Notes under the pieces: generated by a model
What the model saw: the letters and a program-made list of their open reading frames with translations, nothing else
Databases searched by the model: none
What the model was told of the DNA's origin: nothing
Source of the DNA: Vicia villosa
Lineage: Eukaryota > Streptophyta > Magnoliopsida > Fabales > Fabaceae
Assembly: GCF_029867415.1 (NCBI RefSeq)
Contig: NC_081181.1
Coordinates: forward strand, 124,935,042 to 124,999,041
DNA length: 64,000 bases
Direction of reading: 5' to 3'
Part shown: positions 245 to 64,000 of the stretch, in pieces
Layout: every line of letters begins with the position of its first letter
Position numbering within the stretch: position 1 is the stretch's first letter
Program-made: the position numbers and the translations under genes

Positions 245-746
245 TTACGTTTGTTCTCTCTTAATATTATTTCTTTACTTTATATATCTATTTTTTGCTA
301 ACATTTCTCTTAGCGTATAGGTAGTTCATCATCAAGCCAGGCGTCATATTGAAAAAGCGGTAACGTGTTTGTTGTTCACTTCCAAAAATATTATTGATAC
401 TATAATATGCTATCAATTAACATGCTTATAGTGACTTCATGCATAAAATTGCTCTTGCTCATATATGTGTCTCATCTTTAATACACTTTTACCTTTTATC
501 TACTATACTATGAATGCTAGCATTTTATCTATGGTTCTCTCGTTACTCTCCTACTCTCTTGTTTTCTCTTTTTGATGTTGACAAAGGGGGAGATAGATGC
601 TGAGTGCTGAGTGTGCGGGGGAGCTTTGTTGAGAGATTGCCTTGTTGAGAGATAGATGCTGGATGTACGGGGGAGCTTTGTTGAGTCTTTATCACTTACT
701 ACCAAAGCTTCGACGAATGGTTTGCCATCATCAAAAAGGGGGAGTA
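245..746 (+). other. 3' untranslated region and polypurine tract of the copia element
   Basis: This is non-coding sequence between the pol stop and the 3' LTR. Purine-rich runs ending in GGGGGAG occur near 585-592 and at 733-744. The second is directly followed by the LTR start and is the likely plus-strand primer. A short segment ending in CGGGGGAGCTTTGTTGAG is duplicated at about 592-633 and 650-685, so polypurine-like copies are repeated before the functional one. Confidence 0.6.
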
Positions 747-2290
747 TGTGAATACAAGATTACACTCAAAGATGTTTTTGATTCATGGCAAACTCAAATA
801 AGCATTCAAACAACAAGGCGGAAGCAGAAAACTCAAAGAAAAGCAAGCATTGATCACTCATGATAGTGCAGGTTGATCCATTATACTTATAGGTCGACTC
901 AACACAATCAGATCAAGAAGAATGCAGAAAACCAGCAGTTAGGTCGACCTACTGTCAACCCAGGTCGACCTAAAATGGAGAAAAATCCATATACTTCTGC
1001 TAGGTCGACTCACACATCATCTAGGTCGACCTAAATTGATGAAATTTACATACCAGTCTGCTAGGTCGACCTACACAACGACTAGGTCGACCTAATCTGA
1101 GAAAATGTCCCCAGAATGCATTTGAAGAAGATTCTGGTCGACCTACTCCTTAAACAGGTCGACCTAACTAGGAGCAAAATTCTGCAAGCTCTGCTAGGTC
1201 GACCTAAGCACTACAAGAGGTCGACCTAACTGATCAAGAATGCCAAAAATTTTGTTTCTCTCATCTCCAACTGATAAGCTATCATATATATTGTCCAAGG
1301 TTAATTATTCAAGGAAACACCAACGACTGAAAGATACACAAACGCTTCTCATCTTCGTTCTTCATCATCTCCAACACAACTACACATAATCATTCTTGCG
1401 TTGCGGGTTAGTGATGAGTTCGATAACGTCCATGGAACGGAATTGAAGATTCCTAGTGGGTGAAGGTTTGTGGGGTTTGTTGGTGAATAAAATCTGCGGG
1501 TTTTGTCCTCCACGACGGGTGGTTCTTGGGGGTTTTTATCAAGAGGCGTTCATTGAGGATTCGGCTGAGTGTAACGATTGAGGAACGGGGAGTTCAAGGA
1601 ATCAAGACACTGCAGAAGGGAATCAAAGTGAAGCTCTTGGATAACCTTGATCTTGCTCAAGATTAAGGGGGAAGAAGATTCAAAGGATCGACATAATTGG
1701 TTTATCGTTTATCGCTTTGTTATCTTCTTTGTATATACTACTTTCAACATTAATGAAAGATTACCCAATTTCAATTTGGAATTGGGGGCAGACGTAGTCG
1801 TAGCGAGGACGATCGACGAACTGCCTAAACAAATATCGTGTTCTTGTCGCTTTTACTTTTTCATTTACATTCTGTTCATATTTGGTTATAATAGCAAATT
1901 GATCAACGATTCGAGTGTTAAGATTGTGAACTAAGAACTTACATAAACATCACAATCCACCACACATTGAATCACCTTCAATTTGATCATTATCACCAAG
2001 TGTTTGTATATTTGTTTCTATCAATCTTACTGCATTGCAAACATTGTCCATCATACAAGAAGTTAATCTGATTTTCAATTAGAGCAACGATTTGATTCTG
2101 CAACGTATACTCTTATCACTTATCTCAAGTCTTTGACTGGTTTTTTAAACACATATATAATCGTTTCGATAGTGGTTCGGAATAGACGCGAGTCGATTCA
2201 GAATCACTTCCGCTGAAAAGTCGTTTAACTCCGTAAAACTGTGAACGATCTATTCACCCCCCCTCTAGATCCTAAGGCCAGCGTCTAACA
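747..2290 (+). repeat. 3' LTR of Ty1/copia element (SIRE/Maximus-like length)
   Basis: The sequence starts with TGTGAATACAAG directly after the polypurine tract and ends near TCTAACA at 2290, after a C-rich stretch (CTATTCACCCCCCC) common at the 3' end of large legume copia LTRs. Its length is about 1.54 kb. A possible TATA box (ATCATATATATTG) lies near 1283-1295, so transcription would begin in the middle of the LTR. The exact right boundary is an estimate, because the other LTR copy lies outside the window. An array of AGGTCGACCT palindromes sits in the region upstream of the TATA box. Confidence 0.75.
891..1227. repeat. Array of about 12 AGGTCGACCT palindromes in the copia LTR
   Basis: Copies of the perfect 10-bp palindrome AGGTCGACCT, or one-base variants, occur at 891, 941, 962, 1001, 1023, 1063, 1084, 1135, 1156, 1196 and 1218, mostly inside the longer TAGGTCGACCTA. 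Spacing is irregular (about 20-60 bp) and spacer sequence differs, so this is not a simple tandem repeat. The array lies upstream of the probable TATA box, where enhancer-like elements of LTRs usually sit. Confidence 0.9.
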
Positions 2291-11028: not shown

Positions 11029-12582
11029 TAGAGTGAGGTGGGATCGTGAAAGATCGCAGTGAGGCTACGAGAAAGATGTGGTTGAATATGAAGTTAAAGG
11101 AGAATATGTTGCTGCAAAAGTCCAAAGTGATGTGGGATCGTGAAGGGGATCTGAACAGCAAGTATTTCCATAATATCTTGAAAGCTAGGAGGCGGCGTAA
11201 CTTTATCGGTAGTTTATCAATTGATAGAGGTGAATTAGAGAAAGTGAGTTCAATAAAAGAGGAAGTTAGGAGGCATTATGAGGAGAAGTTTTCGGAGTCT
11301 GAAGTTGTGCGTCTTTCGCTTGAAGGTCCTCTTTTTAAGTCTATTTCTTCGGTAGACAAGAGGGTTGTGGAAGAATCGTTTTCGGAGGAGGAAATCAAAG
11401 AGGCAGTGTGGGGGTGCGAAGGGACGAGAAGCCCGAGTCCGGATGGCTATAATTTCGACTTCATTAGAAGGTGTTGGAGTTTTATGAAGAAGGATTTTTC
11501 CTTATATTTCAATGATTTTTATGCTTACGGTATTTTGTCTAAGGAGATTGTCTCTTCGTTCATAACTTTGATCCCTAAAAAGGAGTGCCCTAGGAGACTT
11601 GATGACTACATGCCCATATGTTTGCCTTGGTGGGTCGCCTTTATAAAGCCTTATCCAAGCTTCTTGCTGCTAGTCTGAAGAGGGTTTTGGACTCAGTGAT
11701 ATCGGAGGTCCAAAGTGCTTTCGTTCCTGGTAGGAATCTCTTGGATGGGGTTTTGGTTGCTAATGAGATTATGGATTATGCAGTCAAGGAGAAGAAAGGT
11801 TGTTTGTCATTTAAGGTCGACTTCGAAAAGGCGTATGATAGAGTTAATTGGGTTTTTCTCAAGTTTATGTTGAAGACATTGGGGTTTGGAGATCGTTGGG
11901 TTTCTTGGATGGAGGCGCTAGTTTGTTCGAGTTGGATGTCAGTTCTTGTTAATGGTAGCCCTTCGAAAGACTTCAAGGTCGGTAGAGGGCTTAGACAGGG
12001 AAACCCTTTGTTGCCTTTTCTGTTTGTGTTAATCAGTGAAGGTTTGAGTGGGATGGTTAGAAAGGCAATAGAGGTTCACGAATTTACTGCTTTCAACATT
12101 AAGGGTCGGTGTGACGTGAGTATTTTCCAGTTTTCCAACGACACTCTGATGATAGATAATGGTGATTGGCATCAGGTTTGGGCGTTAAAGGTTTTTCTAA
12201 GAGGCTTCAAATTGATTTTGAGGCTGGGAGTTAACTTTCATAAGAGTCGTCTTATCGAAATTAATTTGAATCATCATTTTGTCTATGCAGCGACTAATTT
12301 TTTGAACGACAGGATTCAATGTAACTCTTTTGATTTCTTCGGCTTTCACTTGGGAGTCAATCATAGATCTGTTTCTTGGTGGGATCCCTTGCTGAAGAAA
12401 TTTAAGGATCGGCTAGGTTTGTGGAGAGGCGGGATTCTTTCATTGGGTGGTCGAATTTCATTAATAAAATCAGTGTTTTCTAGTCTTGCCATCTTTCAGC
12501 TCTCTTTCTTTAAAGCTCCGAGTCATATTATCAAAGAGATTGAGAGAATTCAGAGCAACTTTTTATGGGGAAATAGCGTTGG
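11029..12582 (+). pseudogene. LINE (L1-type) ORF2 reverse transcriptase, first part, 5'-truncated
   Basis: This is coding sequence of a plant L1-like non-LTR retrotransposon. 11046-11678 carries the start of the RT domain (WDREGDLNSKYFH, SPSPDGYNFDF, SFITLIPKKECP). A frameshift near 11625 passes into 11618-12582, which holds SAFVPGRNLLDGVLVANEI, KVDFEKAYDRVNW, LRQGNPLLPFLF and FLWG. The catalytic FADD motif is degraded to FSND near 12130, so this copy is inactive. The 5' part (endonuclease, ORF1) is absent, as is normal for truncated LINE insertions. The frame is cut at 12582 by an LTR element and resumes at 17343. Confidence 0.9.
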
Positions 12583-13879
12583 TGTTGAATGCAGTATAGG
12601 GCAAGCAACAAACAAGATTTGGAAATATTGATCCGGGATTTATCGTCCTCAGAGATGGAGAGATGCCATTCAACAGTTTCTACGGTTTCGAGCTTCGGTT
12701 TGAATGAGCAAAAAGTAAACAAAGATATAGACAGGAAAGAATAACAAACACATTCTTAGAAGAGAAAGAACTTATCAGGAATGTAAATATATTCACTCTT
12801 CACAAACATACACTTACCAACCCATTATATTCAACCTACGATACTCGTCTATGTCATCACGTATCTCTCACATAAGCGTCCATCTCTGGAGCACAAACGA
12901 GATCATCTCACAACTAAGGTTATCTCTAACGCGAAGTCACGAGAACATCCGTATTCTCGCGTCGACGATCTCTCGCGCGCCGCTCAAACACGAAAGCATT
13001 AAGAACAGATACCCACAGTGAATGCTAGCTCTAAATCTATCTCTAGAGTTCAGAACCAACAGATTATCATCCTAGATAAGGATTCAAGAAGTTTATCTCT
13101 AAAGCAACTCAAATCTCCAGCACAGAGCAAAAATCCAGAACAATATCAACACAGATTTGTAAAGCAAGTTAAACATAACATTATAATCGGTAAATATACA
13201 TAAGATTCAAGTATCTATACAAACAAACCCAACACAAAAGAAATACACAAAGAATAGAAGAGATAAACCAAACATCTCGCGGGTTGTCAGCTCCGGTTGA
13301 TGAGAAATCCACCTCCGATCTTCCAAGTGCATGACCCGGTGTTGTTTTCTAAGCTAATCCTACTCTAAGAATGAAAATGATGGAGTTGGAACCAAAAACT
13401 CTCCAAAACCATACCCTAGAAATGTTACAAATGAAGAAATATAAACACAATTTCTGCTACGGCCGCTTAGCGGCCAAACCTCGCTGAGCGGACTACACGT
13501 ATTACAAAAATATCTAGAACAGTAAACAGGGCTCCGCTTAGCGGCCAGAGTCACCGCTTAGCGGCCAGAGAAATTTGGTTCGCCCCTGGAAAGCGCGCTT
13601 ACACGCCGCTCAGCGGCGCTCTCTGCACAAATCTTGCTTATTTGATCCAAAATCGCGCAATCGGAGCCGTGCCTTCGACACTTTATTCCTCGAGGCTCCA
13701 ATAAGCATGAATACCTATAAAAACAAAGGAAAAACTATTAAACGGTATATAAAACATATAAAAACTAAATAATGTGAATATATACACAAAAGTGGGGATT
13801 TTATTACAAAATTAGAATGAATAGAATCGATAAGTGCCACAATTATATACTCAAAATAACAACATTTTGGCACTTATCA
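12583..13879 (-). repeat. LTR (3' LTR in element orientation)
   Basis: Bounded by TGTTGAATGC and CACTTATCA on the plus strand (TG...CA). It holds a cluster of CCGCTTAGCGG-type palindromes at 13461-13475, 13482-13491, 13534-13544, 13554-13564 and 13604-13618. Short reading frames inside it occur identically in the other LTR and are not genes. Confidence 0.92.
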
Positions 13880-51324: not shown

Positions 51325-53832
51325 TGTTAGGAAGTTGATTTGGAACCCTAACAAAACTAGAGAAAGACTAATAAAAGCTGTAAAATAAAAGACAATAAAA
51401 ACTAACTAGAAAAATTAAATTTCATTTCACTTCTTTGATATCTCAAATGTGTCAAAGACAAAACATTATATAATGTCACAAATGGATAATCTAACAAAAG
51501 GCCTAAACACTAAAAGGCCACTTGATTGATAATTAAAAAGCCCAACTAAAATGTAATAAAAATACCACTAATAAACTAACTTAAATAATACTAATTATTA
51601 TATTAAAATACTATCTAAATATTTAACTAATATTTAATAACCACTCTCTATCATTGTCGTCGGGTTCACTTGAACCTTGTCCTCAAGGTTCTAAAATAAA
51701 CATCATGACATATTAAAATTTTCCAACAAAATTTAGCCATTTAGCACATAATGTCTCTAGAATATTCTATAGTGGGAGAAAATAATTGTGTCACTTAGCT
51801 AGCTACTATAGGCTGAATATGTGGAAAAATATAGAATACATCACATGATTTATTTAGTGGGTCAAAAGTTAACCGTAATAAGTGGAAAGGGAAGAGTAAT
51901 GCAGCATAGTGAAATGATGACAACATAGAGAATCACGTGAGGGCAGAGAAAAAAAAACTTGGCGTTTTCAAAAGGACTTGGCTTTTTACCAACATTCTAG
52001 CAAGTGGGATTTCACAACAAAGAGTTTAGGGTTGGTATTAAAAAAGTTTAGATGACATAATGGTTTTTTTTTGTGTGAGGTTAAAAAAAAACACATTAAT
52101 AATAGCCAAAAAGTACGAAATTCCAACTTTATCAACCTTTACCTCACTTTCAATAACCCAACTTATCTCAGTTTCATATCCAGCAAGTGAAAAAAAATTC
52201 TCTTTTCTCCTTCAAATTTTCCCTTTTTCCATTGCTTGTAGCATTCATTTCTGCTTTGTTTTTCAGTTTTGGACTTCTTTCACAGTACCACCATTTACAT
52301 TTGCTTTGTTTCTCTTTAGTAGTGTTTACCTCTTCGTTCATATTTGCTTCAATAAATCCATTTTGAACACTTGAATCTGGTGGTTTCGGTGATGGTCTTT
52401 TCAGATCTAATAGCTTTGCCAATAAAAGTTGTAGATCTGGAGGTTTGGCCGGAGGCAGTTGCAAATCGGAAAATTTCGTCGAAAGAGATACCGAAGTTGA
52501 CAACAGAAGCGTCACCGAAGTTTTCACCCGAAATGATGTTGGATTTGTCTTTGGAAGAGTCGTCGGAGGTGCTGTCAGAATTTTCACCGGAGAAAACACC
52601 GCCGGAAGTTTCGCCGGAGAAGGTGCCGGAATTTTCGCCGGAGTTGTTGCCGGAGATATCACCGAGGATGATATTTGTGAAACAAAAACTTTTTTGATTC
52701 TTTTGTTTTCTTCCTCCATATGTTTTTTCATAGTACTCAGAACATATTTCTCTTTCCATTTTTCTTGTGTTTTTTTTAATGAATTAGAAAGATTTTGAAG
52801 TTGTTCTTTCAACTCCTCTCTAGATCTGTTAGAGATTTCATGAGTTTCGGTTATATATTGTTTTAGAGTTTTTACTTGTGAATAGAAATCTTGAGGTGAA
52901 GGTGTTGAAATATGGTTAGGTGATGAAGGTGTTGTGTGTGTGACAATGGACTCATGAGGATAAGAGAAGGTGAAGGGTGGTTGTTGATCTGGATCAGAAA
53001 TGATGTGGTGTTGTTGGTATGGAATGAAGGTTGAAAATGGAGGATTTGTGGATGGGTAATAACATGTAGGATATTGGTTTACGGATGGAGGAATGAAGGT
53101 GTTGTGTTGTTGTTGGTATGGAATGTATTAAGAATATGCCATAAAAGAGGTTGAGTGGAAGAATGAAAGCACCAATGTTAGGATGTTAATTCTAAACCCT
53201 AACAAACTAGAGAAAAGCTATAAAATAAAAGAGACAATAAAAGTTAACTAATAAAAATAAACTTCATTTCTTTCTTTGATATCTCAAATGTGTCAAAGAC
53301 GCTACATTATATAATGTCACAAATGGATAATCTAACAAAAGGCATAAACACTAAAAGCCCACTTGATTGATAATTAAAAAGCCCAACTAAAATGTAATAA
53401 AAATACCACTAATAAACTAACTTAAATAATACTAATTATTATATTAAAATACTAACTAAATATCTAACTAATATTTAATAACCACTCTCAATGAAAGCAC
53501 CAATGTTAGAAAGTTGATTTGGAACCCTAACAAAACTAGAGAAAGACTAATAAAAGTTGTAAAATAAAAGACAATAAAAACTAACTAGAAAAATTAAACT
53601 TCATTTCATTTCTTTGATATCTCAAATGTGTCAAAGACAATACATTATATAATGTCACAAATGGATAATCTAACAAAAGGCCTAAACACTAAAAGCCCAC
53701 TTGATTGATAATTAAAAAGCCCAACTAAAATGTAATAAAAATACCACTAATAAACTAACTTAAATAATACTAATTATTATATTAAAATACTAACTAAATA
53801 TCTAACTAATATTTAATAACCACTCTCTATCA
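51325..53832 (-). mobile_element. Non-autonomous LTR element with three LTRs
   Basis: Three LTR copies: 51325-51653 (329 bp), 53176-53490 (315 bp) and 53504-53832 (329 bp). The last two are separated only by ATGAAAGCACCAA, whose complement TTGGTGCTTTCAT is the primer-site segment that also borders 53176 on its internal side. Target duplication GACAA at 51320-51324 and 53833-53837 frames the whole unit. Structure in element orientation: LTR, primer site, LTR, primer site, internal 1.5 kb, LTR. Such a duplicated LTR can arise by recombination or abnormal reverse transcription. Confidence 0.9.
52174..53155 (-). pseudogene. Internal coding remnant of the three-LTR element
   Basis: The frame begins with MAYS followed by a stop, then a Tyr/Pro/Gln/His-rich segment (PYQQQHNTFIPPSVNQYPT, PSTNPPFSTFIPYQQHH), then SREELKEQLQNLSNSLKK and a Pro/Ala/Thr-rich repeat stretch (KIPAPSPAKLPAVFSPVK). 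The longest piece is 52812-52174. The layout, a Y/P/H-rich start directly after the TTGGTGCTTTCAT primer site, is the same as in the frame at 62444. No pol motifs. Confidence 0.6.
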
Positions 53833-62147: not shown

Positions 62148-62156
62148 GTTTGATAT

Positions 62157-62427
62157 TGATAGAATATGAAATTGAGCTTTAAGTTATTTAAAATAGTTTA
62201 TGTTAGTTGGGCTTGTCTTAGATATTATTTAGTTGGTCTTTTAGTTATTGGGCCTTTATTTTACTACCCACTATTGTTATCACTATATATGTACTCTTAT
62301 TGAGAAAGTGGAAATCAATCAATGAAATCCAAGTTTATTTTATCTTTTATTCTCTTAGCTTGTAGTGTTCTTCCCCTTTAGTGTAGAAAACCCTAATTTT
62401 GTAGTCTTGATAGGAATCTTCCTATCA
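62157..62427 (+). repeat. 5' LTR of a small LTR element
   Basis: TGATAGAATATG to CTTCCTATCA (271 bp), with a TATA box (ACTATATATGTAC, about 62281-62293). Directly after it comes ATTGGTGCTTTCAT, the same primer-site segment as in the element at 51325-53832. The 3' LTR is beyond the window, so the boundaries rest on the TG/CA ends and the primer site. Confidence 0.75.
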
Positions 62428-62443
62428 ATTGGTGCTTTCATCC

Positions 62444-64000
62444 ATGTACTCAAATCCTCCTATGGATTATGCTTATCATACACCTTCATCTCATCAATGG
62501 AGCATTCCTCCAACCTATTCCACACCCACACCAACACCTTCATTTCCATCATTCCCATGGGAACTCTTCACACCTTACTACACTCATGGATCTTCATCAC
62601 CAAAATTTTATCTAAATCATGGATATTCACCTCATACACCTACCTCATATCCACCACCACCTAACTCATATTCATCATCTCATTATCCATTCTACTACAA
62701 TAATCATCATCAACCACTGCAATCAACAAAAACCTATCACACATTTAAAAAAGATTTTGAGAAGCATTTAGAAGTGTCTAACCCTTGTTTTAAGAAAAGA
62801 TCCAAAAGAACCTCTCAAAAAACCCAGTTTCGCAATTCCAACAGTGATGTTGAAAGATCCCAATTCCATAACATTTTGGAACATGAAGTTGGGAATAGGG
62901 GTTCGGGTGAACCCGAGAGGCATTCAATTCTTACAACTGAACAAAAAATGGAACCTTCACCGCAGAAGAACAAGAAGAAGAAAACCTCGAAGCAATGTGT
63001 CGCCGAACTCAAAACCCTGGGTAACGAATTTCTATCACCAGCCTCAAACATCAACAACCTCCACTCTTCTTCTACCTGTTTCGTTTCTACGGAACCAGAG
63101 AATCTCCAGATTCCCGAAGCCATTCTCTACACCACTCTCACTCCACTTGCTCTCGCCGCTGAGGAATCCCTAAATTCCGACAACCACGGACAATACTCCG
63201 TTTTTCGTAATGAAATCCCTGTCAACACGCCTCAATTCGAATTCGTTCATTCTACTACCCAAGACGAATTCTCCCTCGATGCCGCCGGAGAAGCCGAAGA
63301 CAAAGACACCCTCCGTGAGCCTACGACGCTAGCGCTTGGGAAATCGATTCAACCACGACCTTCTCCACTTCTTGAGCCACCTGATTCACTCACGGTAAAC
63401 CTTTCTTGTGATTCTAAAAGTCCTTTGCTTGAGATTTTGCTTAAGACTGCATCGTTAATTGACGCCGCTGCTACGTCGGCACCTCCACCACCTTTGGAGA
63501 ACCTGCGTCAACTGTTTGAGTCACAAAAATTATGTTGTAGTTTATTTTACTTGTTGAATTTTCAAGACCTCCCTGAGTTATTTGAGAATCATATGAGGGA
63601 ATGGACCACGTTTCGAAAGAAGCAATTGTGTTACATACTTGCATGCCATGGAATCACTTTTGAGCTTGATGAGGAAATGGGTAATGATGACGCAGACCGA
63701 GAAGTGTTGCAGGATATCATAAACAATTCTAAGCTAAGTGAAGAATATCTGACTCTGGCTCGTGATATTGAAGTCATGGAGCCCAAGTCCCATGGAGATA
63801 TATACAAGGCACATTTGCTTGGTGCAGAGGTTTTATCAGCATGTTTCATGTCATCTGCTATGATAGGAAATGAAAATGGCGATGAGGCAGATCATCATGG
63901 GAAGTCTATTCTTATGAACTCAGTATTGAAACCTGGGCATAATTCTGTTCAATTACTGGTTCTAAATTTTAAGGGGAACAATCTGATTTTGTGTGCCAAA
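62444..64000 (+). CDS. Chimeric retrotransposon ORF with CAS/exportin-2 and RPN1 segments, partial
   Basis: The frame is open from ATG 62444 (just after the primer site) to the window end, 519 codons without a stop. Residues 1-95 are Tyr/Pro/Ser/His-rich, as in the related element at 51325-53832. Residues about 96-180 are basic ([20 protein letters not shown]). Residues about 326-388 resemble the plant nuclear export receptor CAS/exportin-2: [39 protein letters not shown]. Residues about 390-459 resemble the 26S proteasome subunit RPN1: [48 protein letters not shown]. Residues 460-519 are unassigned. A weak match to the start of NOC4-like nucleolar proteins ([10 protein letters not shown]...INNL) lies near 190-215. 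The segments look like spliced host cDNA joined in frame in a retrotransposon. No gag or pol motif is visible. The function of a product, if any, is unknown. Confidence 0.75.

Follow-up and report, generated by a model that had tools for sequence, protein, structure and literature searches.

The window analysed here is a 64,000-nt stretch of the Vicia villosa genome (C2:124935042-124999041), at the right-hand edge of which lies the 5' part of a complete LTR element, L031 (C2:124997198-125000891; 3,694 bp). The first-pass annotation, made from the letters of the window alone, had described a 271-bp LTR and its primer site, and both were found in place (Table 1). When the contig was extended past the window, a 3' LTR of 271 bp was recovered at C2:125000621-125000891 with no difference from the 5' copy (0/271, 100% identity), and the 5-bp sequence GATAT was present on each side of the element. 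The primer site reads TGGTGCTTTCATCC and was also read on the full element as ATTGGTGCTTTCATCC, while a polypurine tract, GAAGGGGTTGGTAA, stands immediately 5' of the 3' LTR. Paired LTRs with TG...CA ends, a primer site, a polypurine tract and a short target duplication identify L031 as an LTR retrotransposon; a host gene with a nearby solo LTR was considered and rejected on account of the 3' LTR and the GATAT duplication. Pack-MULEs end in terminal inverted repeats with a ~9-bp duplication and Helitrons have ends of their own; L031 has neither type of end, but LTRs and a 5-bp duplication instead. At a substitution rate of 1.3e-8 per site per year, the absence of differences between the LTRs indicates that the insertion is probably younger than ~0.4 million years.

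Table 1. Features of L031 inside the window and downstream of it (positions are those of the window; residues are counted from the ATG at 62444)
Feature	Residues	Position	Strand	Basis or remark
Target-site duplication GATAT, 5' copy		62152..62156		5 bp; 3' copy after the 3' LTR, beyond the window
5' LTR		62157..62427	+	271 bp, TGATAG...CTATCA
Primer binding site		62430..62443	+	ATG at 62444 directly after
Mosaic frame, window part		62444..64000	+	Part of the 1,053-codon frame
Pro/Tyr-rich leader	1-122	62444..62809	+	In many siblings, not all
Stretch with no assigned Pfam match	123-168	62810..62947	+	
NOC4 piece	169-206	62948..63061	+	Parent N-terminus; best E 1.0e-3, 90% over ~21 aa, alignment
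Poly(A)-RNA-polymerase-like nucleotidyltransferase, 5' end	207-295	63062..63328	+	Protein matches, alignment
Stretch with no assigned source	296-325	63329..63418	+	
CAS/exportin-2 (Cse1) piece	326-388	63419..63607	+	Pfam PF08506, E 2.1e-12
RPN1 piece	389-460	63608..63823	+	PF17781, E 2.9e-17; Rpn1 chain 8amz_Z, E 2.3e-25
Short piece common to L031 and L057		63824..63888	+	Putative template switch at GGC 63886-63888
RRP5-like piece	from ~481	63889..64000	+	Continues past the window; candidate parents on C281 and C473
ClpB-type AAA piece	~560-627		+	Pfam/protein match on full frame
HSP70 piece	~657-692		+	36 profile positions
Formamidase piece	~702-850		+	Pfam/protein match on full frame
MCM piece, best-named match MCM4	~845-908		+	Pfam/protein match on full frame
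SF3B3 piece	~929-1003		+	Pfam/protein match on full frame
3' module	last ~39		+	...KQWDPG...TLRTRLFLKGLVMIE...; ~105 nt, spans the polypurine tract into the 3' LTR

The internal region of L031 is filled by one open frame of 1,063 codons from stop to stop, or 1,053 from the ATG after the primer site, whose stop codon has its last base at position 26 of the 3' LTR (L031:4147 = C2:125000646). Inside the window the frame measures 529 codons from the last stop to the edge and 519 from the ATG; the first-pass annotation had picked it out as still open at the edge and as the longest of the window, rightly so, the next-longest frame having 360 codons. In 50 mononucleotide shuffles of the window, the longest frame had at most 165 codons. 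Neither a polymerase nor an integrase domain was present among the eight Pfam families matched by the full 1,063-codon frame, and L031 has no gag-pol with reverse transcriptase and integrase of the kind that defines an autonomous Ty3/gypsy or Ty1/copia element. TRIM and LARD elements are non-autonomous LTR elements with a primer site and a polypurine tract but without polymerase, the internal region of LARDs being non-coding. L031 resembles them in its LTRs, primer site, polypurine tract and lack of polymerase, and differs in that its internal region is not a long non-coding stretch but a single long frame of host pieces.

Sequence matches indicate that this frame is stitched from about ten unrelated plant genes. 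Protein-database matches (120 listed among 224, with nine proteins compared in full), Pfam and PDB name nine of the host pieces. The CAS/exportin-2 and RPN1 blocks, recognised by eye in the first-pass annotation at residues ~326-388 and ~390-459, were both recovered by profile, and RPN1 also by chain 8amz_Z, which we take to be a spinach-type Rpn1; as had been described, the two lie almost end to end, adjoining at residues ~388-391. The suggestion of a third and perhaps a fourth captured piece proved to be an understatement, since besides the nine named pieces a tenth was matched to intron-bearing genes of the V. villosa genome. The protein database, Pfam and PDB all gave nothing for this tenth piece, which starts at residue ~481, and its candidate parents came from a genome search only; by gene name and S1 domains the piece is presumably RRP5. 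Residues ~461-481, just before it, also occur in the siblings L057 and L060. The ten pieces match as protein in one frame; therefore each is in sense orientation and in the frame of its own parent.

Comparison with parent loci addresses the form in which the host sequence was taken up. The RPN1 parent on C5 matches at C5:124423992-124424168 with 83% over query residues 14-72, and the open stretch there is only 59 codons long. At this locus exons A and B are separated by a 227-nt intron (GTAAGTCC...GCATTCAG; GTAAGT...CAG), and exons B and C by one of 660 nt (GTGTGTTT...TCTCCTAG; GTGTGT...TAG). The RPN1 piece of L031 runs through exons A-B-C with 11 differences from the parent in 69 codons, and both introns are exactly missing; therefore its source was spliced RNA. 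In the RRP5-like candidate parents, found on C281 and C473, ADHHG is followed by an intron and an exon closes with ...LLVL; L031 runs straight through the first position and continues beyond the second. The poly(A)-polymerase-like piece matches the V. faba model P0003 and begins upstream of the annotated start in Lathyrus P0021, a beginning that fits the 5' end of an mRNA. As the intron comparison for RPN1 and the RRP5-like piece establishes, the L031 mosaic is at least partly copied from spliced mRNA. Capture through RNA had been judged likely in the first-pass annotation from the absence of visible introns; that judgement stands, and for RPN1 two missing introns now show it directly.

Two further observations concern introns. 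A different repeat family (L066-L080, 15 loci, with L068-L070 nearly or fully identical to one another) also carries an RPN1 fragment. Its matches hold 1-3 stops each, and the longest frames span 87-146 codons. Two RPN1 exons are still ~220 nt apart in 14 of these 15 loci, and in this family RPN1 was apparently captured at the DNA level. Given an intron-sized gap at 14 loci and none in L031, it seems that capture of RPN1 has taken place in the V. villosa genome both with and without its intron. In addition, the poly(A)-polymerase and CAS pieces of L054 (928-1008) and L055 are separated by an in-frame segment of 81 nt that begins with GT and finishes with AG. This segment is absent from L031 (site 63395) and from L056 and may be an intron that was removed when element RNA was reverse transcribed.

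A DNA search of the V. villosa genome with the LTR revealed a family of such elements. At least 44 matches were obtained (40 of 1,026 candidates scored), from which 18 stretches were taken; the 12 with full paired LTRs were measured, leaving aside L041 (partial LTR matches) and five single-LTR stretches (L044-L048). The two LTRs are identical in five of the 12 elements and differ at 1-3 positions in five more and at 6 and 15 in the remaining two, and identical 5-nt target duplications flank seven (L031, L033, L034, L038, L039, L040 and L042). All 12 carry a sense frame of at least 444 codons: the longest ones measure 1063 (L031), 819, 844, 641, 688, 1006, 517, 904, 808, 795, 444 and 736 codons (median 801.5), as against 86-170 codons for the longest antisense frames. 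Six elements (L031, L034, L037, L039, L040 and L042) have 93.5-100% of their internal region within the frame; in the other six, which are split, the share is 47.6-77%. Outside this set, L041 has a frame of 1,081 codons, L044 of 913, L046 of 293 and L047 of 341, with none of at least 150 in L045 and L048. A search with the 62-aa RRP5-like piece gave 17 matches, namely 15 elements including L031, with frames of 467-1,063 codons, and the two candidate parent exons, with 79.

When the other 11 paired-LTR elements were compared with L031, eight matched the first ~400 nt of its internal region and seven matched its 3' end over at least 60 nt. Between these ends most of them differ from L031; the exceptions are the near-copy L033 (99.1%) and a part of L032. 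Examples among the Pfam matches of sibling frames include ion-channel, cNMP-binding, ankyrin and NOP5NT families in L037, CTP synthase in L039, PPR and Nup85 in L034, NOP5NT and ANTH in L040, TIMELESS in L036, JmjC in L042, and HSP70 and amidase in L041. The comparison suggests a common plan, in which a 5' module (leader or gag-like) is followed by host mRNA fragments in their own frames and by the ~105-nt 3' module. The leader is absent from L035, L036 and L042. A gag-like 5' module takes its place in L036 and L042 (Retrotrans_gag E 0.005-0.01, below the cut-off) and, by eye, in L057, which may hint at the ancestor of the family. L035 (C4:15435300-15439200) and L036 (C4:15264500-15268400) are almost identical and share their flanking sequence, ~170 kb apart and in opposite orientation; they are probably one element counted twice, through a segmental or assembly duplicate, and are therefore not independent copies. 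At C6:11228408-11242673, two family LTRs stand ~14 kb apart, one with a 98.9% leader match and the other with a match to the 3' end. This suspected ~14-kb member was a candidate for the autonomous partner, but no frame of at least 150 codons occurred in 2.5 kb from its middle, and neither that stretch nor the sibling frames examined contained a gag-pol partner for the family. Among viral contigs, 16 pattern matches were obtained, none of them a relative.

The siblings also appear to have exchanged parts with one another. L057 and L031 have frame positions 513-1449 in common at 98.3%, and L044 and L032 share positions 1443-2708 with L031 at ~97%. L031 agrees with L057 as far as ...GATGAGGC and with L044 from GGCAGATCATCAT onward, with the frame kept; therefore the switch falls within the GGC at 63886-63888. 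L054-L056 have the poly(A)-polymerase/CAS and RRP5-like pieces and lack RPN1. L031 thus appears to be a recombinant between an L057-like and an L044/L032-like sibling type, and the joint matches the pattern expected of copy-choice in reverse transcription, a step that we infer from the pattern.

We examined how the frame has changed among siblings. Five captured blocks showed 222 changes distributed 80/71/71 over the codon positions (chi-square P 0.69), counts that partly overlap, as blocks A/C and B/D2 share L031. No stop was observed in the captured blocks, in comparison to 6.53 expected by random substitution when transitions are taken as four times as likely as each transversion (Poisson P 0.0015). 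Length changes in the blocks amount to a 1-nt insertion in L033 and, in L032, 1-nt and 3-nt insertions and a 12-nt deletion; a longer alignment of L032 to L031 has gaps of 3, 3, 2, 3, 1, 6, 12, 39 and 12 nt, two of the nine not being multiples of three. Broken copies include L033, with its 1-nt insertion, L032, with a stop, and L050, with a stop at residue 46. The RRP5-like/ClpB block is ~12% diverged, yet free of stops and frame-breaking gaps. The leader behaves differently over its first part, with changes of 34/24/49 by codon position in residues 1-70 (P 0.012) and a dN/dS of 0.31-0.64 in 10 of 11 pairs examined (of 28 computed) and of 0, with no amino-acid change, for L031-L040; in residues 71-122 the skew (46/38/55) was not significant (P 0.21). 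Captured stretches of at least 100 codons gave dN/dS values of 0.36 to ~1.2 against L031. Residues 481-903 gave 1.23 (L032), 0.69 (L044) and 0.91 (the near-copy L033), residues 900-1054, which include the 3' module, 0.36 and 0.48, the CAS block 0.42-0.48 and residues 481-514 0.42. Compared with its parent gene, the RPN1 piece has a dN/dS of ~0.46, on 11 changes. Because dN/dS is well below 1 in some captured blocks, amino-acid constraint may act there. With changes so evenly distributed over codon positions, we do not favour protein-level selection as the only cause of the open frame. Selection in the family has likely acted on the openness of the frame and not on a particular protein; this is likely and not proven, because the block counts overlap through L031 and broken copies exist. 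The first-pass annotation had offered recent origin or selection as the reason why the frame stayed open, and it may well be both, with a young copy and family data that point to selection on frame openness.

We consider it very probable that L031 is a complete, young, non-autonomous LTR element belonging to a family that captures host mRNA by template switching and keeps an open frame. An autonomous partner would supply the enzymes and package element RNA together with host mRNAs, and reverse transcriptase would switch templates at short matches, both from host mRNA to element and from element to element. Only sense, in-frame products would persist, and insertions that break translation would be lost, because, as we propose, the RNA must be translatable along its whole length. 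Escape from nonsense-mediated decay and translation-coupled packaging are candidate reasons for such a demand, and the chimeric protein would be largely incidental, the leader excepted. That selection maintains the translatability of the whole RNA and hardly its content, with spliced host pieces fused continuously as in an exon-shuffling machine, is a more specific proposition, to which we give an even chance.

The same element and the same RNA capture may also have operated with no selection on the frame, so that young master copies account for the intact frames and in-frame captures are simply those that get noticed. L031 was indeed picked for its long frame, 10 of the 12 copies have 0-3 LTR mismatches and half of the copies are split, all of which suits this explanation. 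However, the siblings came from searches with LTR DNA or with a 62-aa piece, neither of which requires frames of hundreds of codons, and captured sequence as diverged as the RRP5-like/ClpB block has acquired no stop or frame-breaking gap; we therefore regard an account without frame selection as possible but rather unlikely. It is less likely still that the mosaic protein is functional and kept for its sequence, whether as a domesticated chimeric gene or as an element protein that uses host domains. The low dN/dS of the leader and the values of 0.36-0.48 in some captured blocks would agree with a function, but the captured parts change evenly by codon position, the pieces vary between siblings, and they are cut inside domains (~70 residues of RPN1, 36 profile positions of HSP70).

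DNA-level capture, in the manner of Pack-MULEs or Helitrons or by break repair, with later tidying, has an apparent precedent in the intron-sized gap kept by 14 of the 15 loci of the other RPN1-bearing family. For L031 it is scarcely credible: two introns of RPN1 and one of the RRP5-like gene are precisely missing, which refutes it for both pieces, the named pieces are all sense and in their own frame, and the element has LTRs with a 5-bp target duplication.

The closest known system to L031 is maize Bs1, as the first-pass annotation had proposed in principle, and the likeness holds, with several host-gene segments in one frame between LTRs and source introns absent where compared, that is, in the RPN1 and RRP5-like pieces. 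Bs1 is an LTR retroelement with transduced segments of H+-ATPase, xylan endohydrolase and beta-1,3-glucanase that form a chimeric gene, and it is the plant case that a review presents first (PMC13317346). Both are LTR elements carrying several fused host-gene segments; however, Bs1 has three, whereas L031 has about ten in one 1,053-codon frame filling its internal region and is known from genome sequence alone. The L031 family further differs in carrying many distinct mosaics and in the junction where two sibling types meet. In rice and sorghum, 672 and 1,343 LTR-captured genes have been reported and Bs1-type chimeras are mentioned (PMC3726574); host genes lie between LTRs there, as in L031, while the accessible portion of that paper does not describe serial in-frame fusion of many fragments. 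The review also notes these counts and abnormal template switching in LTR elements, and treats TRIM elements (PMC13317346). Transduced sequences are usually in gag-pol sense, according to another source (PMC7264820). Pack-MULEs and Helitrons capture and amplify gene fragments, some of which occur in chimeric transcripts, as the review reports (PMC13317346); they are DNA transposons, in contrast to L031 with its LTRs and, for RPN1 and the RRP5-like piece, spliced sources. A limited check of the literature, which reached some sources in part, found no description of a family that fuses many host pieces in frame and no publication on gene-capturing retrotransposons of Vicia villosa.

Judged from its members, the L031 family seems to be a naturally occurring system for shuffling genes in frame. 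A family that fuses many pieces in frame, taken from spliced RNA in the two cases compared, would, if borne out, make in-frame LTR-driven gene shuffling a recurring process open to statistics, and it raises the directly testable question of why captured sequence stays in frame although its amino acids look nearly unconstrained. If selection acts on the frame only, host-derived cargo would be a by-product of carrying an open frame, for example one that evades nonsense-mediated decay.

The leader of L031 is shared, wholly or partly, by five V. villosa models annotated as 'uncharacterized protein' (P0001, P0002 and P0121-P0123; e.g., LOC131631143). Three of them have matches to several host proteins: P0001 to plasma-membrane H+-ATPase, a GH3 glucan hydrolase and DNMT1; P0002 to HSP70, a dipeptide epimerase, GH3 and an arginine decarboxylase; and P0123 to amidophosphoribosyltransferase, an EngC GTPase and a kinase of the calcium-dependent type. 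Pfam gave nothing for P0121 and P0122. All five look like element proteins, which can mislead gene-family and domain-fusion studies.

The window holds two further retroelement features. A reverse transcriptase frame at 11606-12628 on the plus strand (PF00078, E 3e-19) is probably a LINE remnant. A second complete LTR element lies on the minus strand at 51325-53832, with LTRs related to those of L031 and the same primer-site core. It is flanked on both sides by the target duplication TTGTC, its 5' LTR is duplicated (a-b-internal-c), and its frame of 317 codons resembles V. villosa P0122.
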